From NCBI GenBank assembly GCA_947498595.1, contig CANMKX010000002.1, forward strand, positions 124,001 through 188,000: 64,000 bases of DNA, written 5' to 3'. Every line of letters begins with the position of its first letter. The stretch's first letter is position 1. The position numbers and the translations under genes are program-made. Shown one piece after another: positions 6,027 to 41,276 of this stretch. This DNA is from an uncultured Aquimarina sp. (lineage in GTDB: Bacteria; Bacteroidota; Bacteroidia; Flavobacteriales; Flavobacteriaceae). The notes beneath the pieces were generated by a model. The model was given only the letters and a program-made list of their open reading frames with translations. It had not been told where the DNA came from and did not search any database.

Positions 6027-6561
6027 CGTTATTTTTTCTCTTTTTTAACTTCTACATTCTCTAGAATATTATCGATCACTTTTCTTGAATCTTTACGTAT
6101 TTCGTTTCTAATTTTTTCTCGTTCTTCTTTTGATAAATCTTTCCCAAAATCGTCTAACAATATCGCATTTCGTAAATTCTTGATTCCCATACTATTTTTT
6201 TTTCACTAAACTCTATTGCTTTTCTTGTGGTACTTTCAACATTACAGTACCAACATACAACCTCATCAGAAAATAAACGTTATTATTTATAAATATAAAT
6301 TCTTTTGTTTACAATTAGCAATATCTAAAGTTTTATTGAAAAAACATTACGGTTTTACCATAAAATAATTACGGTACAGTGTTAAATTTTAAATTGCTAT
6401 TCAGCTACCTCCTTTGAATTTCACTTCATGTGTTATTCAAAATGCATTAATACTAGTTTTTCTTGCTACAATATACTTAATCATTTTCTCTAATTTTGAA
6501 GAAAATTAATTACCTTAAACCTCATAAACATTTATTTTACTTAATAAAACTCCTAGTCATT

Positions 6562-7017
6562 ATGAAACATGCTATCATTAATTTGTATAATAGAGATATT
6601 GATAAATTAATATCTGAAATTAATCTTTTTCCATCTGATGCCTCATTGTGGTTATTAAAAGGTACTGTTACAAACTCTGCTGGTACTCTTGGGTTGCATC
6701 TCGTAGGAAACCTAAATCATTTTATTGGTGCTGTTCTTGGTAAAACTGGTTATATTAGAGAAAGAGAGCTAGAGTTTTCGACAAGAAATGTTTCTAAATC
6801 TGATTTAATAGCATTAATAAATGATACTAAAAACATTGTTAATACAACACTTAATAACCTTATAGAGAGTGAGCTTTTATCTGAATATCCTCTTGAATCT
6901 CCTTCGCAATCCAATAAAGGTAGTGTTACTACAGATTTTATGTTAATGCATTTATTAGCACACCTTAATTATCATCTTGGCCAAATAAATTACCACCGAA
7001 GATTATTACAAGAATAA
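6562..7017 (+). CDS. DinB-like family protein
   Basis: 'LHLVGNLNHFIGAVLG' and 'HLLAHLNYHLGQINYHRRLL' histidine pattern; start placed at internal Met. Confidence 0.55.
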   Translation: MKHAIINLYNRDIDKLISEINLFPSDASLWLLKGTVTNSAGTLGLHLVGNLNHFIGAVLGKTGYIRERELEFSTRNVSKSDLIALINDTKNIVNTTLNNLIESELLSEYPLESPSQSNKGSVTTDFMLMHLLAHLNYHLGQINYHRRLLQE

Positions 7018-7031
7018 ATTATATTAAATCA

Positions 7032-7496
7032 TTAAGATCTAGGTTTATCAATACCACGATCATACATTATAATACTACCTGCAACTGCCACATTAAGACT
7101 TAATGTAGATTTAAATTTGATTAAATGATGAGATTTTTCTATTGCTTTTTTAGATAATCCGTGATCTTCTGCTCCTAATAAGTAGACGCATCTCCTTGGA
7201 TGGTGAAAAGTTTCTAGAGGCACTGCTTGATCCGTAAGTTCTACACCTACTAGCATTGCTCCTTTTGGTAAATGCGCATAAAAATCATCAAAAGTATCAT
7301 AATGAAAATATGGCATTGCCCCTACTGCTTTATGGGTATCACAAGCTTGTTTTGCATATCTATTACCGATACTAAAAATAAAACTGGCTCCCATATTTTG
7401 TGCAGAACGCCATAGTACTCCTAAGTTTTCTGGGGTTTTTCCATTTTGTATTCCTATTCCAAAAAAACCTTGCTCTAATGTATCTATCAATGACAT
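7032..7496 (-). CDS. SpoU/TrmH-like RNA methyltransferase
   Basis: 'NLGVLWRSAQNMGASFIFSIG', 'LLGAEDHGLSKKAIE', 'LSLNVAVAGSIIMYD'. Confidence 0.85.
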   Translation of the reverse strand: MSLIDTLEQGFFGIGIQNGKTPENLGVLWRSAQNMGASFIFSIGNRYAKQACDTHKAVGAMPYFHYDTFDDFYAHLPKGAMLVGVELTDQAVPLETFHHPRRCVYLLGAEDHGLSKKAIEKSHHLIKFKSTLSLNVAVAGSIIMYDRGIDKPRS

Positions 7497-7569
7497 TTTA
7501 ATTATTTTTTAATCACTGACAAACTTATTAATTTTACTACAATCCTTATTTATAGATCTCTTTTGATTT

Positions 7570-8931
7570 TTAAAAATTATTCAAAGGTTCTTTTACAGAA
7601 TTATGTCGCTTCAATTTTTTAATTCGTTTAGCCGAAAAGTAATTGGTGTTTAATGGTGCTATTTGTTTAAACATATAGATATCATCTCCTCCTTTTCCTC
7701 CTTTTCTATTACTCGAAAAATATCCCATTTTATTTTCTTCATTAATTATGAATGTAAAATCATCTTCTGGGCTATTAATTGGTTTACCAACATTGTATGG
7801 GATAAAAACACCATCTCTATTGGGAGCTGCCATAAACACATCTAATCCTCCCAAACCTACATGTCCATCGCTTGCAAAAAATAGCTTTCCTTTATCACTA
7901 ATGTATGGAAATGTTTCTCGTCCAGGTGTATTGATTTTATCTCCTAAATTTTTTGGAGAGCTGAAAGTTCCATTTTCATATATTTTAACTACATATAAAT
8001 CTGATTTACCATAACTTCCAGGCATATCACTTGCAAAATATAAACGTTTTCCATCTTCGGATAAAGCAGGATGAGAAACTGAATATTCATCACTATTAAA
8101 AGGTAACTCTTCTATATCTTTCCATTTTTTACCATCAAAGGTAGCTTTGTATAGCTTTAATAAAATTGTTCCTTTTTTATTTTCTCCTATTTTTCTTTTT
8201 GTATAATTATTACGTGTAAAATATGCAGTCTTTCCATCTTTTGTAAACGTTATTGAGGATTCATGAAACTTTGTATTTATTCTTCCTCGTAAACGGTGTA
8301 AATCTTCTGTAGAAGATTTTTTAGCTTCAATTGTTGTTGTGTATAAATCTAAAAAAGGTTGGTTATTCCATCCATGTACTACTGATCTTGCATGATTATT
8401 AACTCTAGAAGAAGCAAAAACTAATTTATTTTCATAAAAACTTGGAGCGTAATCTGAGTATTCTGAATTAATACTCAATGTATCAACAATAAATTTACCT
8501 GATTGTTCTTCAATAAACTCCAGATAATCTTCTCTTTTTAAGTCTATTATTTTAGGATTATATTCTTTTGTTCTTTTAATGATTTTAGTTACTGCATCTG
8601 CTTCTGCATAATGCTCTATACTTTTTAAACTCATCACATATCTAAATAAATACTCTGATTTTACTTTTGTCGTGTATTTATCTATTAGTTTTTTATACCA
8701 TACTGCTGCTGATTCATTATCTGAATTATAATAATACGAATCACCTAATCTCTCATATAATTCTATTGACTCATATCCTTTATCTAATAATTCTAAATAT
8801 ATAGCTCTTGCATCTATATATGCATATTCTTCAAAAGCTTGATGAGCTTTTTCTAATTGTTTTTCTTGAGAAAAAACCATACAAAAGAATAACGATAACA
8901 CTATTGTGCTCGGATACTTCTTTAAAACCAT
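7570..8931 (-). CDS. PD40/WD40-like beta-propeller protein lacking a C-terminal OmpA domain
   Basis: Repeats 'ALSEDGKRLYFASDMPGSYGKSDLY', 'FFASDGHVGLGGLDVF'; co-linear with 14400-16349 but truncated. Confidence 0.75.
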   Translation of the reverse strand: MVLKKYPSTIVLSLFFCMVFSQEKQLEKAHQAFEEYAYIDARAIYLELLDKGYESIELYERLGDSYYYNSDNESAAVWYKKLIDKYTTKVKSEYLFRYVMSLKSIEHYAEADAVTKIIKRTKEYNPKIIDLKREDYLEFIEEQSGKFIVDTLSINSEYSDYAPSFYENKLVFASSRVNNHARSVVHGWNNQPFLDLYTTTIEAKKSSTEDLHRLRGRINTKFHESSITFTKDGKTAYFTRNNYTKRKIGENKKGTILLKLYKATFDGKKWKDIEELPFNSDEYSVSHPALSEDGKRLYFASDMPGSYGKSDLYVVKIYENGTFSSPKNLGDKINTPGRETFPYISDKGKLFFASDGHVGLGGLDVFMAAPNRDGVFIPYNVGKPINSPEDDFTFIINEENKMGYFSSNRKGGKGGDDIYMFKQIAPLNTNYFSAKRIKKLKRHNSVKEPLNNF

Positions 8932-20787: not shown

Positions 20788-22446
20788 ATGTATCAAGATA
20801 AGCCCTATGAAAATCTTCGTTTTGGACTTTATGCTCGTAAATCAGAAGAAGATAAAAAACGACAAATACAATCTATAGAATCACAAATAGATGTTTTAAA
20901 TGAATGTGCAGAAAGAGAGGGGATTAAAATAGTTAAACGATATGAAGATTGTGCATCAGCTCATAAGCCAAATAATAGGAAAAATTTTAGCCAGATGTTA
21001 CAAGATATAAATGATAAAAAAATTGATGCTATTTTGTGTTGGAAGGCAGACCGATTAGCAAGAAATCATATAGAAGGTGGAATGGTAATGCATTGTTTAG
21101 AGAAAAGTATTATTAAGATGATTAAAACGCCTTATAAAACTTTTTTACCTATAGATAATAATTTGCCATTAACGATAGAATTCGGGATGGCAAATCAATA
21201 CAGTCGAGATTTATCAGTAAACATAAAAAGAGGGAATTCAACAAAAGTAAAAAACGGAGGATGGTGTCATGTTGCTCCATACGGTTATATTAATAACCGA
21301 TTAGAAAAAACGATAGAAAAAGACCCAGAGAGATTTGAAATGATCAGAAAGATGTGGGATTTGCTTTTAACTGGAGAATATTCAATGAAAAAGATATGTG
21401 ATATAGCTAATAATGATTGGGGATACAGAAGTAGAAAAAATAGACCAATGACAACGGGATCAATTCATGCATTGTTCAACAAGCCTTTTTATTACGGATA
21501 TATTAAATCTGGAGAAAATTCAGGATGGGGGAATCATCAACCTATGATCACATACGAAGAATTTCATAAAGCCCAAGAAATCATGAAAGCAAAAGGCAGA
21601 AAAGCTCATACTAATGATAAAGAATATACTTTTTCAGGAATAATGAGGTGTGGTGAATGTGATGCTGCTATTACAGCAGAGACGAAAGTAAAATATAACT
21701 GCCCTAAATGTAATAAGAAACAAACAGCTAAACATCCTAAAAAATGTATTTGTGGTTATGAACTCACGTATAGTGATGTCGCAAAAGGTAAATTTTACAC
21801 TTATTATTTGTGTTCCAATGGAAAAACTCCTTGTAGTCAAAAAGTTTCACGAAAAGAAGATTTAACAGATCAGTTCGAAGCTATCATAAAACAAATAACA
21901 ATTAATCATTCTTTTGTTGAGTGGGCTAAAAAATGGTTGGATTTTACAGAGTCATACGCAATAGAGGATCGTATGAAAAAACAAAAGCGCAAAGAGAAAG
22001 AGAAAAAAACGTTAGAGCTACAACGTTCAAACCTTATTGATATGCGAATGAAAAATGAAATAGATGGAATATTATTTAAAGAAAAAAAAGATACGTTAGA
22101 ATATAAAATAGAGCAAATAGAATGCTCATTAAGAGAAAAAAGTAATGCAATAGAGAAAACAAAAGAGTGTATCGAATTTATAGAAGGATTAAACAATCGT
22201 TACAAAATGGCTTCAAGTAAGTCTAAAAAACATATACTTCTAAAATTATTATCGAACCCCATTTTAATGGACAAGAAGGTGCATGGGAAAGCCAAAAAGA
22301 TATATATCGAATTGAAATCATTCAATATCCATGAAATAAGCGTTATCGAACCCCCAAAAAGCCTTTCTATGAAAGACTTAGAAGCCAAACAAGAAGAGTT
22401 GTTTCAGAGATGGTGCTACATCTCAAGTTTAACCGAAAAAATGTAA
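20788..22446 (+). CDS. Large serine recombinase (resolvase domain, recombinase domain, zinc ribbon)
   Basis: 'GLYARKSEEDKKRQIQSIESQ', 'DAILCWKADRLARNHIEGG', Cys-rich 'MRCGECDAAI...YNCPKCNKK'. Confidence 0.92.
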   Translation: MYQDKPYENLRFGLYARKSEEDKKRQIQSIESQIDVLNECAEREGIKIVKRYEDCASAHKPNNRKNFSQMLQDINDKKIDAILCWKADRLARNHIEGGMVMHCLEKSIIKMIKTPYKTFLPIDNNLPLTIEFGMANQYSRDLSVNIKRGNSTKVKNGGWCHVAPYGYINNRLEKTIEKDPERFEMIRKMWDLLLTGEYSMKKICDIANNDWGYRSRKNRPMTTGSIHALFNKPFYYGYIKSGENSGWGNHQPMITYEEFHKAQEIMKAKGRKAHTNDKEYTFSGIMRCGECDAAITAETKVKYNCPKCNKKQTAKHPKKCICGYELTYSDVAKGKFYTYYLCSNGKTPCSQKVSRKEDLTDQFEAIIKQITINHSFVEWAKKWLDFTESYAIEDRMKKQKRKEKEKKTLELQRSNLIDMRMKNEIDGILFKEKKDTLEYKIEQIECSLREKSNAIEKTKECIEFIEGLNNRYKMASSKSKKHILLKLLSNPILMDKKVHGKAKKIYIELKSFNIHEISVIEPPKSLSMKDLEAKQEELFQRWCYISSLTEKM

Positions 22447-22448
22447 GA

Positions 22449-24461
22449 TTATTCTATTTGTAACTTTTGAAAAAATATTTTATTCCTCTGTGTGGCATCA
22501 TTTAAAAGTTTTTTAAAACTAATAATTTCTAAATATATCTTATAACCAGAATGATATCCAAAGTACCCCTCACCGTCAGGACTAGGGACTAACTGATGAT
22601 TAGTAGCAAAATCTTTAATTTTATCAGTAATATCTGCTATTACATACCCATAAACAGGAGTATTATCGTTTACTTTAATTACCTCTAATCCATCAGGCAT
22701 TTCATATTTTCCTTCTCGTATTTTTTTGACATATTTACCTATTTGTAAAACAGGGTCATCCTTATCTTGATAATTTTTTCTTTTAGGCCTTTTGAATTCA
22801 AATATAGTTAGAGGGTTACTAAATTCATTTTCTCCATTTCTAAAAGATTTTTTTTGATCAAAAACAACTAGATCTGGTTCGTCTAAAGCATCTTTTTTGG
22901 AAGAAATTTTTTCGTCAGAAGAGATAAAATTAGAAAAAACTAATCGTTCATCTAAAATCCATAAATTATGATCTTCGTAAGGCGTATCCTCTGAATTTTT
23001 TCGCATAGGATAAATTAAATTATGAATTTCTTCTTCAAGATGACTAGATCCATCTTCTTTTCTTTTAAGTATTTCTTTCATAGCCTTCAAAATGCATTTT
23101 CTATTAAATACATAATGAGCAAGATCTGTTTTACCTATTTCCGAAATATCTGAAATTATTTTAGTCATTGATGGTTTTTCCTCTTGTGGGATAGTTACAT
23201 CAAAAAAATGATTAAATTTAGTTCTAACTTCAATTTCTTTAGCGTGTTTTACTTTATGTAAAGCTATTTCTATATCTAAGTCGGTTAAATTATAACTAAC
23301 AGAGTTGAGATCTAAATCTTTGATATATTGTTTATGCCAAGGAGCTGAATTATTTACGTAGTCATTGATTTTAGTTTCTTTTTTTTCTTTTCTTGATGAA
23401 ACATCATCGGGGAATAACTCCACAGTTTTTAAGGCAGCTTTATATTCTATTTCATGTTGACAAAAAGGATAATAGCTATCGGATTTATCTTTTCCAAAAT
23501 CAAAATGCTCTCGCTCTAGAGATACATTATTATCAAGGTAATCTCCTAGAATATAAGTTTTAACGATATAATTACGTTTATTAGTTTTATCTTCTTGGTT
23601 ATCATAAAATTCATCTTCAAATTCAGGAATATGTTTATGTAAGTTTGATTCGGTTACAGCTCTATTGTGTCCTGTTAAAATTATTTTACTTTTTTGATTT
23701 CTAGGAGAATAAATTTTAAAAACTTTCCCATTAAATTTTTCTTTTAGACTATTTTGTTGTAGTTCAAATTCAATGTTTGAAATAAATTTAATATCAGACC
23801 CATTCTTCAGATAATTATTCAAAATAATAGAATCAGAAGAATCAGCTTCTTTAATAGTTATGATCGGACATTCAAAGGTGTCATTAATAAAATATATTAA
23901 TAATTTTTCTAATAGTTTTTTAGCTATTGTGTCTAAATTTTTATCAAATGAATGAGTTTCATATAAGTGTTTTAGAGTTATACAGGAATAAGTTTCTATA
24001 TTATTAGTAGTTGAGATTTTCTCATCTACAATAATTTCATATTGTTTACCAAAATTAAATTCTCTTTTTTTGAAGCTTGAATTTTCATCAAAAAATACAC
24101 TCTCAACACTTACATTATTAAAATATTTAATAAACATAAATCTACCATAACCTTTTCCACCAATATTCTTTTTGTGTTCACTATAAAAAGTATCGAATGA
24201 TTCTCTATTTTTATTATTAAACCCCGTACCATTGTCAGTAATAGATATAGAGTGAATTTTAGGTATTTGAGTGTCGAAAGCTAAAGTTTGATCTCTATGA
24301 ATTGTTATATCAATTTTGCCTTTAAAGGTATTACTCTGAGATTCTTTTTGCTTATGCGTAATTGATTGTATTGAATTAACAATAGCTTCAATAATAGGTG
24401 TATACACATTAGATTTACTCTTAATGTTATTTATGGTTCCTTGTATGTTAATTCTACTCAT
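22449..24461 (-). CDS. GHKL (HATPase)-type ATPase with C-terminal PD-(D/E)xK-like motif
   Basis: N-term 'EAIVNSIQSI', 'ITDNGTGFN', 'GGKGYGRFMFIKYF'; C-term 'EPDLVVFDQ...NPLTIFEFKRPKR'. Confidence 0.7.
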   Translation of the reverse strand: MSRINIQGTINNIKSKSNVYTPIIEAIVNSIQSITHKQKESQSNTFKGKIDITIHRDQTLAFDTQIPKIHSISITDNGTGFNNKNRESFDTFYSEHKKNIGGKGYGRFMFIKYFNNVSVESVFFDENSSFKKREFNFGKQYEIIVDEKISTTNNIETYSCITLKHLYETHSFDKNLDTIAKKLLEKLLIYFINDTFECPIITIKEADSSDSIILNNYLKNGSDIKFISNIEFELQQNSLKEKFNGKVFKIYSPRNQKSKIILTGHNRAVTESNLHKHIPEFEDEFYDNQEDKTNKRNYIVKTYILGDYLDNNVSLEREHFDFGKDKSDSYYPFCQHEIEYKAALKTVELFPDDVSSRKEKKETKINDYVNNSAPWHKQYIKDLDLNSVSYNLTDLDIEIALHKVKHAKEIEVRTKFNHFFDVTIPQEEKPSMTKIISDISEIGKTDLAHYVFNRKCILKAMKEILKRKEDGSSHLEEEIHNLIYPMRKNSEDTPYEDHNLWILDERLVFSNFISSDEKISSKKDALDEPDLVVFDQKKSFRNGENEFSNPLTIFEFKRPKRKNYQDKDDPVLQIGKYVKKIREGKYEMPDGLEVIKVNDNTPVYGYVIADITDKIKDFATNHQLVPSPDGEGYFGYHSGYKIYLEIISFKKLLNDATQRNKIFFQKLQIE

Positions 24462-24550
24462 AGTTTTATAAGATAATGTGTGGCTTTATTATAAGTACAA
24501 AAATGTAATATGAAAGAATAAATATATTAACTAATTTAATTTTAAAACAA

Positions 24551-26314
24551 TTATATGTATTCAATGTGAAAATAATTAGAGAGTTTGTTTTTGTTTTCTT
24601 CTGTTAAAGAAGGAATGGAAATGGCTAGATTGTTTTTTGCTCTACTCACAGCTACATAATAAATACGATGTTCTTCGTTACCTTGAATATTAGGAGTAAT
24701 TAAGAAATTTATATCTTCTGGTTTTTTTAAAACCAATAGAACATTTTGAAACTCGTCCCCTTTTGCCTTATGAATGGTTTTATGTAAGCTCAAGTCTTCA
24801 GGGATTGAAACACAAATTAACATTTGTGTTAGAGAATGATTTTCATAGAATGTTTTTACTTTACCTGAACTAACTTTCGGAAGTTGAAAATCAAAATTAT
24901 CTCGAATATACTCAGAAAATTCTATTAAAGAGGAATCTTCATATGAATTAAAATCATTTAATAATTTTGACAAATAGACTAAAGACTTGCGTTTTTTTTC
25001 CATTTTATCGTACTCATTAGAAAAACATTTCTCTAATATTTTGAATGCATCTTTAAATTTGTTTTCATGGGCGTAAGCGATAGCTTTAATGCTAAAATAC
25101 ATTATATATTTTCTTGCTCGGTTTGAGTCTGTATTAAGTAAGTTTTCTAATGCTTTTTGATCTAACTCACTGCCATCAACGTTAGCTTTAAGTATATTAG
25201 ACGTAAAATTATTTCTAGAAAGAGTTTGAATTTCCATCTCATTAAACTCTTTTTTTATTGTCTCCAGAGCAATTATCATATCTCCTACATATATAATAGG
25301 CTTATTGATAGAAATATTTCTATAATTTATTTGTTCTATGTCTGTTCTAATAGATTTAAGGACATCAATAATTTCATTACTACTACGTCTGTTTTCATTA
25401 AAAGTATAATGTTGAATATTTGGTAAAGTAAAATTATTTATTTGATTATAGTTAGCTCCTTGAAATTCGTAAATAGATTGGGCTGGATCACCAATTACAC
25501 CTGTGATTATATTATTTAAACCAAGCTTTTTAAAAATATCTATTTGAATAGGATTGCTATCTTGGAATTCATCAACAAAGAAGTAAGGGAATTTATGTGA
25601 TAAAACTTCTATGATATATGGAAATTGAGTTAACAATTGATAGCTAAAAAAAAGTATATCATCATGAGAAATTTTTCCTTTTTCCCAATAGAGTTTCTTA
25701 TAGTCTATTAAGTTTTCATTTAAAGCAGATAAGCATTTATTATTCAAGTATCTTCTAGACCCATTATCCATATAGAATGCTTTTGAATTATCAAGAGAGA
25801 GGGTTATATTGTTTGTTGTCAACTCGTAAGATATAGAATCTAACCAATTTATAAGGGCAGTTTTGTTGTTTGGTAGTCTTGTTAATTGATTAATACTATA
25901 AGGATGTGATAATTGATTTTTGTTTGGATGATTGTTTATCCACTCATTTACTATTTGAAAATTGGTTTTTATTTCATCATGACCATCTATTTTAGAGATA
26001 TCAATAGAATATGCATCTGAAATAAATGATATATAAGGCTTAATTATATGTTTATATAAAAAACTATGTATCGTTGAAACTTCCACTTGTGATATGGCAC
26101 TACCTAATCTTTTTTGAATAGTCTCTACAGCTATATTAGTATAAGTAATACACGCTACTTTTCTTGTAGAAGAAAGTTTATTTGAATTATTTAACACATG
26201 TTTAATATGGTTGGCAAGCCAATGGGTTTTTCCTGATCCTGGTCCTGCTGATATTTTGAAATGCTGATCAATAATATCAATTTTATGATCTGAGTTTGTT
26301 TCGATTACTGGCAT
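24551..26314 (-). CDS. UvrD-like helicase (GajB-like)
   Basis: Walker A '[17 protein letters not shown]', '[17 protein letters not shown]', '[13 protein letters not shown]', '[15 protein letters not shown]'; 10-bp overlap with 26305-28359. Confidence 0.82.
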
Positions 26315-28359
26315 AGCTCTGTGATTGCGTTTTGTATATATGGAGGAATAATAAAATCTATAAACTCATCAGTACCTTTTTTCTTAAGGTTTTCAGATAA
26401 ATTATAGGCTAGTTCTAATGCATTTTCTCCTTTTCCAATTGAATTTAAATATCTAGAAGCTATGATATGACGCTTCTTTTCATCTTCATTATAATTACTG
26501 TTAGCCTGTATACTGGTTTTTATACGAGTATTCTCTTTGCTATCTCTTAATACATTTAATAAATCATCAACTGTAGAACTAGAATCTTTGTATAAAGTCA
26601 TTAATTCTTGTATTTCTTCTTTATTACTCATGGAATCAGTAATTAATATATTTGAAGATGGATTATTTAATACTAAATCATATTCAAATGTCTTCCCTTT
26701 ATCATTTTGGCTAAAAAAAGTAATATTAGGATGTTTTTTATGCTCATATTTTTGATCAAAAATATTAAACTTATAATCATATTTATCTGTATCTAGATTA
26801 TATTCAAAAGGGTAGCACTTTTTATATTTACTATTTGCTTTTCCTTTACTTTCAGGATCTCTGTCGGTAATACACACTACTTTTTTATGAATAGTATTTT
26901 CTTGAGAACTATCGAATAAATATAAAAAATGATCAAAATATCGGCCTCCAATATTTATAGTAGCGATATGATTATCAGCCAGAGATACATCTAAATAATC
27001 TGCTAAAATAGAAAGCAATAATTGTTCAGCTATTCCTTCTACGAGCAGGATTTTTTGAGCAAATAACATATCAGATTTCGTAGCATCTAAAAATCGTTGA
27101 ACATACTTTTGGCTTTGTAAAGTAGGAAATACTTTAGAAGGATATCCTATAGTAGTTTGACTATTCTCATTATGTAAACAAATAATCTCATCCAAAGACA
27201 CAGCAGATGTAATATGTGTAGAGTGAGTAGTAATAAAAATTTGTCTCACTTTTTTATCTTTCTTGTTTTCATTAAGAAACTTGAGAAATTTGTATTGCAT
27301 TGCTGGGTGTAAATGAGCCTCTGGTTCTTCTATAGCTAATGTCGTAAATATTTTGGCATTAGAATCTAAGTAATCAACATCCGCATTAATTTGCATTTTT
27401 GCTAATAACAACGACATGAAAATTAAATTATTGTATCCCAGTCCATTATGAGTTGCAGGTATTTTGATTCCAGATTCATATTCGATGATTAATTTTAATA
27501 CAGAATACATTTCATCTTCTGAAATAGTACCATCAAAATCAGGAGACGCTTTGTTGAATGATGCTCCTGTGTTTTTAGCATAAGAGAGTATTTGTTCCTT
27601 ACCAAGCTTAATCCGTTTGTTTAATTCATCTATAAGAACTTGTGCTTTTTCTGAAAATTCATTTCTTCGTTCTTTTATTTCAGTATATTTTTCATCAGGA
27701 GTTTTCTCTGTATTTATTTTAATGTCATAATCCATAAAAAAATCGAGGACTTCACGTAGAAGAGTATTACGACCTGTTAGCATATCTCTTTCAACGTCAC
27801 GTATTGCATCTAAAAATTGAAAATCAATTTTTTGTAATGATTCACTATCAGCTACTGCTTTATTATTTATATTTCCTCCCCATAATTTGTGCATATAGAA
27901 TCTAAGGAACTCATGTTTGATTAATTTCCATGCTTTATCAAGTGCTTTAGGATCTGTATTGTCTATAGAATCAAGTGCTTTTATATAAGCATCTTGTTTC
28001 TTTTCAGGTAAGAAGAATTCATAAGTTAATAGAGCCTCATAGTTATTATCTAATTTGGTTAACCAATTAGAAATAACTACTAAATCATCTGGGGTTTCTT
28101 CTTTTCCTTTGTTAATAGTTAGCGAAATACTAATTTTTGGTGGAGTTGTTTTTAAAGTTTGTATTTCAATATTTTTATTGAAATCATCGACATTTAATTT
28201 TTTAGATTGATTACTATCGATAACAAGAGAGATGGCCTTTATAAGATTTGTTTTACCAGCATTATTATGACCAATAATGACATTTATACCATCATTAAAA
28301 CTTATTTCTTGGTTTTTGAAATTCCTGAAATTTGTTAATTGAATTTTTGAGATGTACAT
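26305..28359 (-). CDS. OLD-family ATPase/TOPRIM nuclease (GajA-like)
   Basis: '[22 protein letters not shown]', '[22 protein letters not shown]', TOPRIM '[14 protein letters not shown]' and '[14 protein letters not shown]'. Confidence 0.85.
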
Positions 28360-28495: not shown

Positions 28496-28786
28496 TCAAT
28501 ATGCTATTGATTTCCCCATATGCCAAACAGACCAAATCAAGATTTGATCGTCTCGTAGTTCGTAGTGTATTCCATACGGAAAATCAGAGAGAAACTTAAT
28601 TCGAGTTTCTCTATAAATTAATTGAGATCCTTTGGGATAGCGTTTTATAAAATCAAGATGCCTATCCAAAGACTGTAAAAATGCCTGAGCTAGATCAGCA
28701 TTGATACTAAAGTAATAAGCCATAGCCATGTCTATATCATTACTAGCAGATGGCTTAACGACAAACTTACGCAGCATATTTTGCAC
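28496..28786 (-). CDS. ParE/RelE-family toxin
   Basis: 'AFLQSLDRHLDFIKRYPKGSQLIYRETRIKFLSDFPYGIHYELRDDQILIWSVWH'. Confidence 0.8.
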   Translation of the reverse strand: MQNMLRKFVVKPSASNDIDMAMAYYFSINADLAQAFLQSLDRHLDFIKRYPKGSQLIYRETRIKFLSDFPYGIHYELRDDQILIWSVWHMGKSIAY

Positions 28787-28985
28787 TAAGTTCAGCTTTT
28801 ATACTTTCCCAAGATTGCCCTTGATCTTGTTCTGCTGCCATTCGTTGATCAAGTAATCTTTTATGTTCTTCAGGCATCACATAATTCTTTTGCTCTGTTA
28901 AAGAGATTTCCAGTCTCAATTCATCAAAATTCTTGAAATGCGTTTTAGAAAGTTTTAAATCCGAATCCACAACAATATGTACCAT
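28767..28985 (-). CDS. Antitoxin of ParE-type module
   Basis: 72-aa ORF overlapping toxin start; addiction-module-like 'RLLDQRMAAEQDQGQSWESIKAELSAKY'. Confidence 0.7.
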   Translation of the reverse strand: MVHIVVDSDLKLSKTHFKNFDELRLEISLTEQKNYVMPEEHKRLLDQRMAAEQDQGQSWESIKAELSAKYAA

Positions 28986-30483: not shown

Positions 30484-31611
30484 TTAGAAACCTTTTAAAT
30501 ATTCTATATAATTATTATATATTTTAGTTTTTTCTTTCTCTAAAAGATTAAGAAGTTTTTTTTTGACTTTTCTTTTATCGGATGAAGGAATATTATTTTT
30601 TAAATTAAAAGAACCAATATTAATTTCAAATTCAGCTTTATTTCCAATTTTTTCAAAATATGGAAATCCAAAATTTACAGAAAGATTACCTTCCGCGAGT
30701 TCGTAATTAAAATTAAATTTCACTTCCATTCCCCAACATTTAATATATTTATGGTACTTTTTCTCTTTAAAAAAGAAATCTTTTTGAATGCCTTTTCCTT
30801 TAAAGATTAAAGTATCTTTATCTGACATCCAATCAATTTCTTTAGGAAGATCAGAATCTTCATCTGCTTTAAAATGAACATCAATTATATCGTCAAAATT
30901 AAAGAAAGAATTATTCATTTTATTTGATAATCTAAGAAAAAAAATTATCCTTGTTTCATTGTTGAAGTCTCCGAAATAAATCTTTTTTATTTCCTCTTTT
31001 GGAGCTATTGAATTAGTTTTTTTAAAATGATCTAATACAATGTTTTCAATAACATTGGCAACCTTTAAAGTTTCTTGAGAGGTATACTCTTTGATTATTT
31101 TAATAGAAGAGCCACCTTCTTGTTTTTCTATAATTAAATTACCAGAAAATAAATTACTAGATTCATACCAACTTTTATTAAAGTCTTGTCGTATTATTTC
31201 AAAATTTAAGACAACTTTATCATTCAGTTTAGATTCCTTATAAAAGGGAGATAATTTATTAACTTTGAAATTGATTAAATTAAAATCAATTTTATCATTA
31301 ATATTGATTGTATCTGGAACTATATTAATTAATTCTTCTTGAGAGTTGAATGATATTGTACCTGTTGAAGATTTTGTATTATCTTCTTTTGTATTTAATT
31401 GATCTTTTAAAAATTCAAACTCATTTGGACTTAACAATATGGTACTAAGGAAAGGGACATATTTTTCTTTTGAATTATGATTAAAAAAAACACCTCTCTT
31501 GCGTAATATTTCTTTTAAATCCGATTTAGAAAGTAGAGATTGATTAACAAATCCTCTTAAAAACTCACCTTGTGGTAATATTTTATCTATATGTTTATAT
31601 GGATCTATCAT
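30484..31611 (-). CDS. GapS4b-like protein of candidate two-gene antiphage system
   Basis: 'ILPQGEFLRGFVNQSLLSKSDLKEILRKRGVFFNHNSKEKYVPFLSTILLSPNEFEFL'; 4-nt overlap with upstream gene; family recalled from memory. Confidence 0.5.
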   Translation of the reverse strand: MIDPYKHIDKILPQGEFLRGFVNQSLLSKSDLKEILRKRGVFFNHNSKEKYVPFLSTILLSPNEFEFLKDQLNTKEDNTKSSTGTISFNSQEELINIVPDTININDKIDFNLINFKVNKLSPFYKESKLNDKVVLNFEIIRQDFNKSWYESSNLFSGNLIIEKQEGGSSIKIIKEYTSQETLKVANVIENIVLDHFKKTNSIAPKEEIKKIYFGDFNNETRIIFFLRLSNKMNNSFFNFDDIIDVHFKADEDSDLPKEIDWMSDKDTLIFKGKGIQKDFFFKEKKYHKYIKCWGMEVKFNFNYELAEGNLSVNFGFPYFEKIGNKAEFEINIGSFNLKNNIPSSDKRKVKKKLLNLLEKEKTKIYNNYIEYLKGF

Positions 31612-32522
31612 CTCAAATAAGAAAAAAGTTTAATATTAGATTTTGCATAACTTTCATTGAATGAAAGTAAGGCTGTGTGTATCATGTTTTTATGCCTCAA
31701 TTCATTATAATCGGGAAAACCTATGAAAGTTTTTGAAGCCCATCCTTGTGATATTTCAAGGGAAAGCCCTACTAACCTTTTAAAATCAGATACATTGAAA
31801 TTATCTTTTGTACATATATATAAGTTAGATTGATTATTATTAATTATTTCTTTAAAAACTAAAATATTAGAGGTTAAAAATTCTACAGGCATAATATTAC
31901 CAGAAAATTGTCTTTCATTTGGATTTAAATTTTTACCAGTTGAAGGATAGTAGAATTCTAATTTGTTAGAACCTATTTTAAGTTTAATAGCATCAATACT
32001 TCTTTTAATGAAATAATATGAACTATTACTGAACACTAAAATTTTTTCAAAATTTAAATCTTCTGTAAATCTAGTCGTAGAAATCTCATTTAATAAACTA
32101 TCATCTTTTTCCGAAGGAGAATTACTTAGCCAAACTAATATTCCTAATGTATTTATATTATTGTAATAATCAAAACCAGAAATTAAATTTGATCTAACTT
32201 GAGATTTTTTGTAGCACTCTAAACTATTTGCTAAATCAACAAAAAATGGTTTAAAAGTACCTCTAGGAGCATCGGGATATTCTTTATCACTATATTTGAC
32301 AGAAATAAAAATATCAACGAGTTCTCCTTCAACTAGAGGTGATTTATATATAAAACCAAGATCTAAACCATGAGTTCCTCTTTCAAGACTTTTTTTATGA
32401 TTCGAAGGAGTAACACAGTCGATAGTCATTCCTTCATTTAAAACGTCCCATCCAACTTTATTAAAAAAATCTAAAGTGATTTTTTCACCATATTCACCAA
32501 TTTTTTTGGCTAATTCACCCAT
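31608..32522 (-). CDS. GapS4a-like putative PD-(D/E)xK nuclease
   Basis: 'GEYGEKITLDFFNKVGWDVLNEGMTIDC...THGLDLGFIYKSPLVEGELVDIFISVKYSDKEYP' (D..xVK nuclease-like core). Confidence 0.5.
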   Translation of the reverse strand: MGELAKKIGEYGEKITLDFFNKVGWDVLNEGMTIDCVTPSNHKKSLERGTHGLDLGFIYKSPLVEGELVDIFISVKYSDKEYPDAPRGTFKPFFVDLANSLECYKKSQVRSNLISGFDYYNNINTLGILVWLSNSPSEKDDSLLNEISTTRFTEDLNFEKILVFSNSSYYFIKRSIDAIKLKIGSNKLEFYYPSTGKNLNPNERQFSGNIMPVEFLTSNILVFKEIINNNQSNLYICTKDNFNVSDFKRLVGLSLEISQGWASKTFIGFPDYNELRHKNMIHTALLSFNESYAKSNIKLFSYLR

Positions 32523-36733: not shown

Positions 36734-38572
36734 ATGATACACCCAAAAACAAGATTGAGTATAGACGGAAAAAACATACCCTATTTTGATGCGATCTCGC
36801 TGACTCAAAGTATGAATGATCATCATTCATTTAGGATTCAATTAGATAATGATGTGATTGAGAAAACAGGCAGTCATACGATAGATGCTTCTAGAAATTG
36901 GTTAGGAAAAGTGGTTATTATAACCTTTGATGAGACTGATTTTTTAGGCATTATCACCGAGATTAATCTCGCGAATGATAATGGGCATCATGGCAATCTG
37001 ATTCTCGAAGGATATTCGCCAACAATATTATTAGAAGGAGGCGAAGATATGCGCTCATGGAAAGAGAAACGTCTGGAGCAAATCGTAAAAGAAATCTTGG
37101 GGGTATTAACGATAAAAAAGAAAATAGCACCAAGATTTAAAGACAAAATGCCGTATCAGGTGCAATACAAAGAGCATCATTTTCAGTTCTTACAACGGCT
37201 TGCCAAGCAGTATAACGAGTGGTTTTATTACGATGGGTTGAGTATAGTTTTTGGAGCACCAAAATGGCGGGATGCGGTAACGGTAGAATATGGACGAGAG
37301 ATTGATGAGTTGTATTTACAAATGCGAGTGAAAGATCATACGCAGCAGATGTACAGCTATAATGCTATGGATAATAGAGTTGTAAATGCAAAGTCAAAAA
37401 ATGCGGTTGCAGGCTTAAATGAACTAGGAATGCATGCTTTTCAGGCATCAAGTAAATTGTATGTAAATCGGAAAAATAGCTTTAGCGATATAGATGCTAA
37501 AGACAAATATTTGATAGATGGCGTAGCCGAAAGGAAGCAAGCGCAAGCAGCGGCAAGACTGCATGTATTGAGAGGAAAAGGACATAAACAAGGATTAACT
37601 ATCGGATCTGTTATTAAAGTAGATTCTGCGAAAAACGAAGGCAAAAAATTATTTAAAATACAGAGTTATGGAAAATATGTAATAACAAGCATTACGCATA
37701 CAGTTAGTAAAGAAAATAGCTATAGTAATAGCTTTGAGGCTATTCCTTCCGAAATTAAAATTCCAGAAGAGCCCAAAGTAGCATTGCCTAAAGCTGCACC
37801 ACAATTGGCAACGGTAGTAGCTAATAAAGACGAAAAAAGCAAAGGGCGTATAAAAGTAAAAATGCAATGGCAGCTTGGGGATATGGAAACGCCATGGTTA
37901 CGAGTAATGACTCCAGATGCGGGACAAACCGATGATCATAAAGAGATCCGAGGTAATGTGGTGATTCCAGAATTAGGGGATCAAGTAATGATTGGGTTTG
38001 AGTACAATGACCCAAACAGGCCTTTTGTAATGGGGAGTATGTATCACGGGATGAACATCACCAAGGGGATGGAAAACCGAAACAGTTTAATAAGCCGTAC
38101 AGGAAGCCGTATGATAATGGATGATAATGACGGAAGTTTACAACTTACCGACAAGGGCGGTGTAGATATGAAATTTGATGGAAAGGGGAATGCAACGGCA
38201 AAAGTTAATAAAAATAATACGGTAAATACTGGAACAATAAATACATTCAATACAGGAGCAGAACAGATAATCAATGTAGGGGCAACAAAAGACAGTCCTC
38301 CTAAATCAGTTTTGAGAATGGATAAAGAGGGGAACATTATCTTAGAAAGTGATACTAGTATAGTATTTAAAGTTGGAGAAAGTATTATAAAAATTACTGA
38401 ATCGGAAATAAAAACGATGATCGCAAATGGTAATATGACTACCGAAGCAACAAACGGAGAACATAAAATAATAGCAAAAGGGTTAGATATTACATCAAAA
38501 ACAAAGTGCCGTGTAACGTCTAAAAGTACGATGGAAATTAAAGGAAGTGAGGTAGAAATAAATAAAGGCTAA
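36734..38572 (+). CDS. vgrG: Type VI secretion VgrG-like protein
   Basis: 'HHFQFLQRLAKQYNEWFYYDG', 'DEKSKGRIKVKMQWQLGDMETPWLRVMTPDAG', 'GNVVIPELGDQVMIGFEYNDPNRPFVMGSMYHG'. Confidence 0.88.
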   Translation: MIHPKTRLSIDGKNIPYFDAISLTQSMNDHHSFRIQLDNDVIEKTGSHTIDASRNWLGKVVIITFDETDFLGIITEINLANDNGHHGNLILEGYSPTILLEGGEDMRSWKEKRLEQIVKEILGVLTIKKKIAPRFKDKMPYQVQYKEHHFQFLQRLAKQYNEWFYYDGLSIVFGAPKWRDAVTVEYGREIDELYLQMRVKDHTQQMYSYNAMDNRVVNAKSKNAVAGLNELGMHAFQASSKLYVNRKNSFSDIDAKDKYLIDGVAERKQAQAAARLHVLRGKGHKQGLTIGSVIKVDSAKNEGKKLFKIQSYGKYVITSITHTVSKENSYSNSFEAIPSEIKIPEEPKVALPKAAPQLATVVANKDEKSKGRIKVKMQWQLGDMETPWLRVMTPDAGQTDDHKEIRGNVVIPELGDQVMIGFEYNDPNRPFVMGSMYHGMNITKGMENRNSLISRTGSRMIMDDNDGSLQLTDKGGVDMKFDGKGNATAKVNKNNTVNTGTINTFNTGAEQIINVGATKDSPPKSVLRMDKEGNIILESDTSIVFKVGESIIKITESEIKTMIANGNMTTEATNGEHKIIAKGLDITSKTKCRVTSKSTMEIKGSEVEINKG

Positions 38573-39423
38573 TGAAAAACGCAATTACATTAGTACTCAG
38601 TCCTACCTTTAAAAAGAAGACCTATAAAATACTAAGACAAGAAAAGCATTTTTTTCAAGGAATTCATAGCGAAAATGCTATTGAAATAATAGTAATCGTT
38701 GAATTCTTAAAGCAGCTGTCAAATGGTAATAATCAGTTTAGAGTTATACAAAAAGAATACCAGCAAAGCAATCAAAAGGGAATGTATGCATGGGCAAAAG
38801 CTATGTCTCCAATTCATAAAGAATTTATTGTAAACATAGATAAAAATGGAATGTTAACAGAGATAGTGAATCACGATCTGATAACAATTACATGGGGAGA
38901 ATTAAAATATGATTTGAAAAAGAAATTTAGAAAATCAGATTATAAAAATCAAATGATTATTGGGATAAATAATGTTTTAAAAAATAAAATACTATTTCAC
39001 GAACTAATGAAAGATCATTATGTTTTTATGCTTTTATTCCCAACAATTTACAATGAATGTCTAAAAAAAGAAGGGGATTTAAAAACACAAAAAACACTAC
39101 ACAATTTTATTGGAAGTCGAAAAGTTCCCATTATCACCAAAAACAAATTAAAAGCAGTAGATACAGAAAATAATACGGTCGAAATAGAAGCAATTGGAGA
39201 GGTTGATAATAAAACCTTTCGACAAGATCAAGTAACAAGTATGATCAAAATGTTAAAAAACAGACCTCGTGTGCCTACTACACTACGTTTTAATCATACA
39301 GAGCGATATCTACTTGATAAGGATCATTCACCTATACAGGCTATGATGCTAAGCCTATTACGTATTCCAGGGACATTATATCGAGAAGAAAAAACAATGA
39401 TAAAGCAGATCGACGAGATATGA
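38572..39423 (+). CDS. Hypothetical protein in T6SS effector operon (possible adaptor/chaperone)
   Basis: Start overlaps vgrG stop; co-directional. Confidence 0.6.
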   Translation: MKNAITLVLSPTFKKKTYKILRQEKHFFQGIHSENAIEIIVIVEFLKQLSNGNNQFRVIQKEYQQSNQKGMYAWAKAMSPIHKEFIVNIDKNGMLTEIVNHDLITITWGELKYDLKKKFRKSDYKNQMIIGINNVLKNKILFHELMKDHYVFMLLFPTIYNECLKKEGDLKTQKTLHNFIGSRKVPIITKNKLKAVDTENNTVEIEAIGEVDNKTFRQDQVTSMIKMLKNRPRVPTTLRFNHTERYLLDKDHSPIQAMMLSLLRIPGTLYREEKTMIKQIDEI

Positions 39424-39689
39424 AAATACCTATAGAAAATATAGTGAATAATCATAGGCGGTATTTTATTTTGATTGATTCAAAAATAAAAATACCAAAA
39501 GAAGTAAAATATAAGACGAGAGGTAAAATAATATCTGATACTACATCAATAGTGGTAACAGTGAAATTATTTAAGCCCTATAAAATACAAGGAGAACTAT
39601 CGTGGATTCTAGAGAGTGATGCAGATTTATCATCATTAATAGGATATCCATTTGAAGAGCATAATGTGTTTTTGGCACTAGAAGTTTAA
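39420..39689 (+). CDS. Hypothetical protein in T6SS effector operon
   Basis: ATGA overlap with 38572-39423. Confidence 0.55.
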   Translation: MKIPIENIVNNHRRYFILIDSKIKIPKEVKYKTRGKIISDTTSIVVTVKLFKPYKIQGELSWILESDADLSSLIGYPFEEHNVFLALEV

Positions 39690-39722
39690 GAGTAACCAAG
39701 GAATCATAAAAATGAAAAACAA

Positions 39723-41276
39723 ATGGCAAAGAAATATGTGCCAGATGGAGTGTTTTTGGCGTGTGATAAAGGCACATGTCCATCAACTTTCAAAGTAACC
39801 AATCATAAAAAAACGACAATATATAATTCTCCTATGGCAACAGAAGGAGACTTATTTCCGTTTTTTAATATTAAGCCTATGGGATTTTGTACAAATCCTG
39901 CAAAAATATTAGCTACAGGTGCTATGTGCACTCCAGTAGTATTACAATGGGAAAAACCTAAAGATGGAGTCACGATTGATGGTAAAAGACTATTATTAGA
40001 AGATTCTACGTGTAAATGTACTCTTGGTGGTGGTGAAATATCAATACATTTTGATATAGCCTCAGCGAATACGATAGCAGTATGGGGCGGCATGAAGATG
40101 CCAACTGAATATATAAAAGAAGGTTTTGATTGGGCGTTTGCAACGATTGAAGAATCGAGAGCCGAGAGAAATAAGTATTTGCCCGAATGGATGGAGCCAG
40201 TGGCAGATGTCCATGATTGGTTTGATGATATGACCTTAGCGTTATTAGAAGGAGCAGTTACAGGTGTAGTTGGATTAGGAGAAGTAGTATATCAAGTAGC
40301 GCAAGACCCAGTTGGAATGGGCGAAGCTCTTTATGATATGGCAGAAGAAGCGTATCAGTGGCAAGATCAGAAGAAAATGGAAGCTCTTTTATGGATGAGT
40401 AAGAAGGAAAATTGGGAAGCTACAGGTGATGCCACATGGGATTGGCTAACGGAAGAAGGGAGTTTATCAAGTACTGCAAAAGAAGCTTGGGAAGGAGTAG
40501 AAAATGCAGTATCTTCGGGTACAGATTGGCTTGCTAAGAACCCACGAAAGCTAGGAACAGTTGTAGGCGAATTTGTTCCTGATGCAGTAGGTGCAGCATA
40601 CACAGGAGGTGCTACAGTAGCCTTGACGGCAGGAAAGAAAATAGTAAAAGAAGTAGGCGAAGAAATTGTAGAAGAAGTAGTAGAGAAAGTTGCAAAAGAA
40701 GCTGTAGAAGAAGCCAGCGAAGCTGCGAGTAAAAAGGCGATAAAAGAAGTAGCAGAAGAAGTAGTCGAGGAAACAGGAAAAGATCTTCCGAAGGTGGTTA
40801 CGAAGGATGCGGATGAGGTGGCTGAATTAAAAATGCTACCTCCTCCAAAAGTAACTACCAAAAAGACATTAAAGCAAGTAAGAAATTTAAGAGGTAGAAA
40901 AAAATGGGAAGCTGGAGAGGAGTATGTTCAAGATCTATATGGTTCTAATGGGCAAAAACATTATACAGTTCCTAAAGACGGTGAAATAACAGGTACTGGA
41001 GGGCGTCATGTCGATGCACCTGTAGAAATACTAAATAATGGTATTCTCGCTATTGAAGTAAAAACGTATAATAGATATATTACTGTAGAAGGAGCGGTTA
41101 AAGTAAATGAAGTACCTTTAAGTAATTCTATCAAACAACAAATATTAAAAGATGTTTGGCTAAGAGATAACATAAATGGATACGATCCTAGATGGATATT
41201 TTTAGATGCACCACCAAGTTCTCAATTATCTGATTTTTTGCAACAAAAAAATATAATATCTATAATATATAATTAA
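39723..41276 (+). CDS. PAAR-like (DUF4280) polymorphic toxin with C-terminal PD-(D/E)xK-like nuclease domain
   Basis: N-term 'VPDGVFLACDKGTCPSTFKV...MGFCTNPAKILATGAMCTPVV'; C-term 'GGRHVDAPVEILNNGILAIEVKTYNRY'. Confidence 0.8.
   Translation: MAKKYVPDGVFLACDKGTCPSTFKVTNHKKTTIYNSPMATEGDLFPFFNIKPMGFCTNPAKILATGAMCTPVVLQWEKPKDGVTIDGKRLLLEDSTCKCTLGGGEISIHFDIASANTIAVWGGMKMPTEYIKEGFDWAFATIEESRAERNKYLPEWMEPVADVHDWFDDMTLALLEGAVTGVVGLGEVVYQVAQDPVGMGEALYDMAEEAYQWQDQKKMEALLWMSKKENWEATGDATWDWLTEEGSLSSTAKEAWEGVENAVSSGTDWLAKNPRKLGTVVGEFVPDAVGAAYTGGATVALTAGKKIVKEVGEEIVEEVVEKVAKEAVEEASEAASKKAIKEVAEEVVEETGKDLPKVVTKDADEVAELKMLPPPKVTTKKTLKQVRNLRGRKKWEAGEEYVQDLYGSNGQKHYTVPKDGEITGTGGRHVDAPVEILNNGILAIEVKTYNRYITVEGAVKVNEVPLSNSIKQQILKDVWLRDNINGYDPRWIFLDAPPSSQLSDFLQQKNIISIIYN

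Follow-up and report, generated by a model that had tools for sequence, protein, structure and literature searches.

ParaMORC3 proteins were defined by Iyer, Abhiman and Aravind in 2008 by a GHKL ATPase combined with a C-terminal E-D-ExK nuclease domain (PMC2292703). They are prevalent in proteobacteria and bacteroidetes, and one subset is stand-alone, without conserved neighbours (PMC2292703). VcSduA of Vibrio cholerae is a single-gene system with the GHKL and nuclease architecture that restricts phages (Nat Microbiol 2025, PMC12137116). It was active against all T1-like Drexlerviridae tested and protected cultures at every multiplicity tested (PMC12137116). The E27A or K557A mutation abolished its activity, showing that the ATPase and nuclease residues are both required, and protection needed no R-M genes (PMC12137116). 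VcSduA was classed by its authors as Shedu type I-D; similarly organised proteins had earlier been named paraMORC3 (PMC12137116).

The Gabija pair and the adjoining gene

The window analysed here is a stretch of 64,000 nucleotides from an uncultured Aquimarina sp. Its minus strand carries gajA, gajB and a gene for a 670-aa protein in this order, and all three are co-directional. The features of this part of the window were as follows.

26305..28359, minus strand: gajA, OLD-family ATPase with TOPRIM domain, 684 aa (PADLOC PDLC00069; Pfam AAA_15 and OLD-like_TOPRIM)
24551..26314, minus strand: gajB, UvrD-like helicase, 587 aa (PADLOC PDLC00119; Pfam UvrD-helicase)
24462..24550, minus strand: 89-nt gap separating gajB from the GHKL-nuclease gene (promoter/terminator scan)
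22449..24461, minus strand: predicted single-gene protein of paraMORC3/VcSduA type, 670 aa, with GHKL ATPase and C-terminal PD-(D/E)xK nuclease domain (conserved residues, HATPase_c in homologues, profile comparison, literature)

GajA matched PADLOC PDLC00069 over its full length (residues 1–684, E = 1.3e-300), and GajB matched PDLC00119 over residues 4–585 (E = 1.3e-215). The pair thus has both features by which Gabija is recognised: a GajA with OLD-type ATPase and TOPRIM, and an adjoining UvrD-like GajB. According to the ORF coordinates, the two genes overlap by 10 nt (26305–26314), and PADLOC and Pfam agreed with the sequence-only reading, which had described an OLD-TOPRIM GajA-like and a UvrD GajB-like gene with this overlap. 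Full-length model matches, gene order and overlapping genes are all as in Gabija, and no difference was found within gajA and gajB; the unusual part is the neighbouring third gene only. By these matches, the window gajAB is a complete, ordinary two-gene Gabija, and complex formation and anti-phage activity are predicted for it.

The third gene had been placed 90 nt downstream on the same strand. Strand and order were correct, and the gap is 89 nt. The promoter/terminator scan detected no terminator-like site in the gap (24462–24550), and promoter-like sites around it were at chance level for the region. Given the shared strand, the short gap and the lack of a terminator-like site, co-transcription of gajA, gajB and the 670-aa gene is possible.

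Domains of the 670-aa protein

The gene is present in a single copy in its own genome, and its product matched no PADLOC and no NCBIfam model. The GHKL motifs lie within about residues 22–108. Pfam HATPase_c matched the window protein only below threshold (E = 8.2e-5), and it matched 17 of 19 homologues. In 49 aligned sequences, E25, N29, D76, G78, G80, G101, G104, G106 and R107 of GHKL motifs I–III were invariant. The presumed motif IV reads SCITL, while many homologues have Gly-Thr at this place; because of this difference, ATPase activity of the window protein is not certain. No solved relative was found by sequence. For the S5 domain between ATPase and nuclease, the one sign was a weak match to the Mlh1 profile from the PDB (E = 0.92).

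The C-terminal PD-(D/E)xK nuclease domain covers about residues 440–670. Its residues E476, D530, E555 and K557 (E-D-ExK) were invariant in the 49 aligned sequences. The GHKL and nuclease motifs are not chance occurrences, since HATPase_c matches 17 of the 19 homologues and the catalytic residues are invariant throughout the alignment. The Hsp90/MORC-type ATPase N-terminus (ITDNGTGFN, GGKGYGRFMF) and the C-terminal nuclease-like motif (EPDLVVF...TIFEFKRP) read earlier from the letters are present and were borne out by these residues.

Region 440–670 was compared profile-to-profile with three collected PD-(D/E)xK families: SduA_C, HSDR_N and Mrr_cat. SduA_C (Shedu) gave a probability of 80 with the first family alignment and of 87 over 131 columns with a broader alignment. 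HSDR_N gave a probability of 93 over 108 columns, and Mrr_cat gave 0.2. For the N-terminal region, there was no match to any of the three families. The profile matches and the conserved residues support a PD-(D/E)xK nuclease fold. Because HSDR_N scores as well as SduA_C, Shedu and HsdR-type PD-(D/E)xK are not separated, and the profiles by themselves gave no assignment to Shedu. The SduA_C Pfam model (DUF4263) had no direct match in 19 aligned members, nor in the genome of the window, which leaves Shedu membership on weaker ground than the fold.

The protein was compared with the described systems. Like paraMORC3, it has an N-terminal GHKL ATPase and a C-terminal E-D-ExK domain, comes from a bacteroidetes host and is stand-alone; no difference from paraMORC3 was found in these features. 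With VcSduA it shares domain order, length class and the setting of a single gene among other defence genes. E25 and K557 would be the counterparts of VcSduA E27 and K557; this placement is indirect and runs through a homologue on a Vibrio fluvialis plasmid, in which E27 and K556 align with them. That homologue, with its matching E27, is 31% identical to the 670-aa protein, so the latter is probably a distant branch. On domain order and conserved residues, the 670-aa protein belongs to an already described architecture (paraMORC3, 2008; VcSduA, 2025).

Distribution and neighbourhoods of the two families

Homologues of the 670-aa protein were mostly full length, and the family was widespread and patchy. 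It was found in 445 candidate stretches of species-representative genomes, in 56 plasmid records and in 10 of 395 genomes of the phylum. In the genus search, the gene was in no other of 66 genomes. A search of viral contigs with the 670-aa protein gave no match. A phage record (ON245412.1, 40028–41998) holds a 30.6% identical GHKL-nuclease homologue where the annotation gives an amidase.

For 86 homologues (80 genome loci and 6 plasmid loci), the surrounding genes were examined over up to 10 kb on either side; in 49 of the 86, both flanks measured 8 kb or more. Gabija was sought with GajA and GajB of the window and of three other subfamilies, with PADLOC confirmation, a screen by which more divergent pairs could be missed. 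A Gabija pair lay within about 10 kb in only three of the 86 loci, in three different arrangements. In L076, the pair followed immediately downstream on the same strand, giving the order GHKL-gajA-gajB. The other two loci had it on the opposite strand, 5–6 genes off in L058 and 2–3 genes off in L017, where GajA is short. The best PADLOC GajA models in L076, L058 and L017 were PDLC00086, PDLC00090 and PDLC04168, respectively, against PDLC00069 in the window. None of the 15 closest homologues (L021–L035, 49–61% identity), several with short flanks, had a Gabija pair nearby.

OLD-like ATPase genes were also seen beside the family. A 593-aa one, without GajB, lies directly downstream of the 59% identical homologue in L022, and another adjoins the homologue in L057.

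In the opposite direction, GajA relatives were sought in 395 genomes of the phylum and 395 of the order. Five were read, at 61% (L111), 55% (L107), 51% (L112), 44% (L108) and 42% (L109). gajB adjoined gajA in all five. No GHKL gene was found beside the pair in the stretch read of any of them; the L112 contig ends soon after gajB. In L107, gajB is apparently split into two reading frames (6058–7813), and the adjoining gajA is intact. One genome, G012, holds both families on different contigs.

From the surveys in both directions and from G012, Gabija and the GHKL-nuclease each occur without the other, and the two units are inherited independently. A conserved third Gabija gene is rejected on the basis of the 3 of 86 loci, the 0 of 15 closest homologues and the five GajAB relatives without a GHKL gene. 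The headline of the sequence-only reading, a Gabija extended by a third gene, was therefore not upheld. That reading had named as decisive against itself that the gene is never next to GajAB elsewhere. This is so in substance and not to the letter, as L076 has the genes adjacent in another order.

Other neighbours recurred. An operon of an MmeI-type IIG enzyme, an SF2 helicase, a T5orf172/MUG113 (GIY-YIG-like) protein and the GHKL-nuclease was found in about 14 loci, mostly alphaproteobacterial (for example, L044:3138–12000). Further homologues adjoin type I, III or IIG R-M genes. These R-M neighbours agree with the 2008 paraMORC3 paper (PMC2292703). At the end of a type I R-M operon on a V. 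fluvialis plasmid (L135:6610–10004), a classical SduA (Shedu) gene and a GHKL-nuclease gene overlap by 4 nt.

Setting of the locus and its interpretation

The surroundings of the three genes in the window contain the following features.

20788..22446, plus strand: large serine recombinase, context, part of neither system (Pfam Resolvase, Recombinase, Zn_ribbon_recom)
28496–28985, minus strand: ParE-like toxin and, overlapping it upstream, a 72-aa ORF for its possible antitoxin
30484–32522, minus strand: GapS4a and GapS4b, a pair scoring above the NCBIfam cut-offs
36734–41276, plus strand: possible type VI secretion cassette with a VgrG-like baseplate protein and a DUF4280 protein of 517 aa
43232–44920, minus strand: GmrSD-like restriction protein (GmrSD_N and GmrSD_C; PADLOC HEC-06/Orf5 matches)

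The serine recombinase gene is convergent with the GHKL-nuclease gene, their stop codons being 2 nt apart, and RadC and a tyrosine integrase lie beyond it. GapS4a and GapS4b are 2–4 kb beyond gajA in the same island; they had no match in PADLOC-DB 2.0.0. The GmrSD-like gene sits about 15 kb away. The recombinases, GapS4, the GmrSD-like gene and a GHKL gene confined to this genome in the genus search would fit a laterally acquired defence island.

The locus very probably holds two independent anti-phage systems side by side in this island: a two-gene Gabija and a single-gene GHKL-nuclease of paraMORC3/VcSduA type. Since relatives show independent inheritance, the locus counts as an ordinary defence island, not as a three-gene Gabija of a new kind. 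Two systems side by side was the last alternative offered by the sequence-only reading, which named a one-gene defence system separate from the neighbouring Gabija, and independent inheritance together with the published architecture makes it the best supported. The GHKL ATPase module may form a dimer clamp. ATP binding or hydrolysis by the module would control the protein's own C-terminal PD-(D/E)xK nuclease, and the nuclease so controlled would cut phage DNA. By analogy, we infer that the window copy would work like VcSduA and would need no Gabija component.

The same strand, the 89-nt gap without a terminator-like site and the one other adjacent case, L076, would also suit a GHKL-nuclease made from the same transcript as a third subunit, effector or regulator, acting with GajAB. 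However, the association is not conserved in either direction, L076 has the GHKL gene first and a GajA of another subfamily, and VcSduA protects as a single gene (PMC12137116); this explanation is very unlikely. It is highly doubtful that in this lineage the GHKL-nuclease was captured into one GajAB transcription unit, with two nucleases cooperating against phage, while relatives keep them apart.

Many paraMORC3 genes are accessories of R-M systems, and in other bacteria the family recurs beside MmeI-type IIG enzymes, SF2 helicases and R-M genes of type I or III, so the gene could be an accessory of an R-M system located elsewhere in the genome and stranded here. This is highly improbable, because the annotated neighbours of the locus include no R-M methylase or R-M helicase, a stand-alone paraMORC3 subset exists in bacteroidetes (PMC2292703), and VcSduA needs no R-M genes (PMC12137116). 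A decayed or inactive passenger of a recombinase-bearing element would be consistent with the deviating presumed motif IV (SCITL) and the adjoining serine recombinase gene, but the 670-aa frame is intact and all nuclease residues and GHKL motifs I–III are conserved, which makes such a passenger extremely unlikely.

The candidate 'extended Gabija' is struck from the list, and a gene left unnamed by PADLOC and NCBIfam models is now placed in a published defence architecture. As the family is common (the 445 candidate stretches), a separate system should be considered before a new subunit where GHKL-nuclease genes lie beside other systems.
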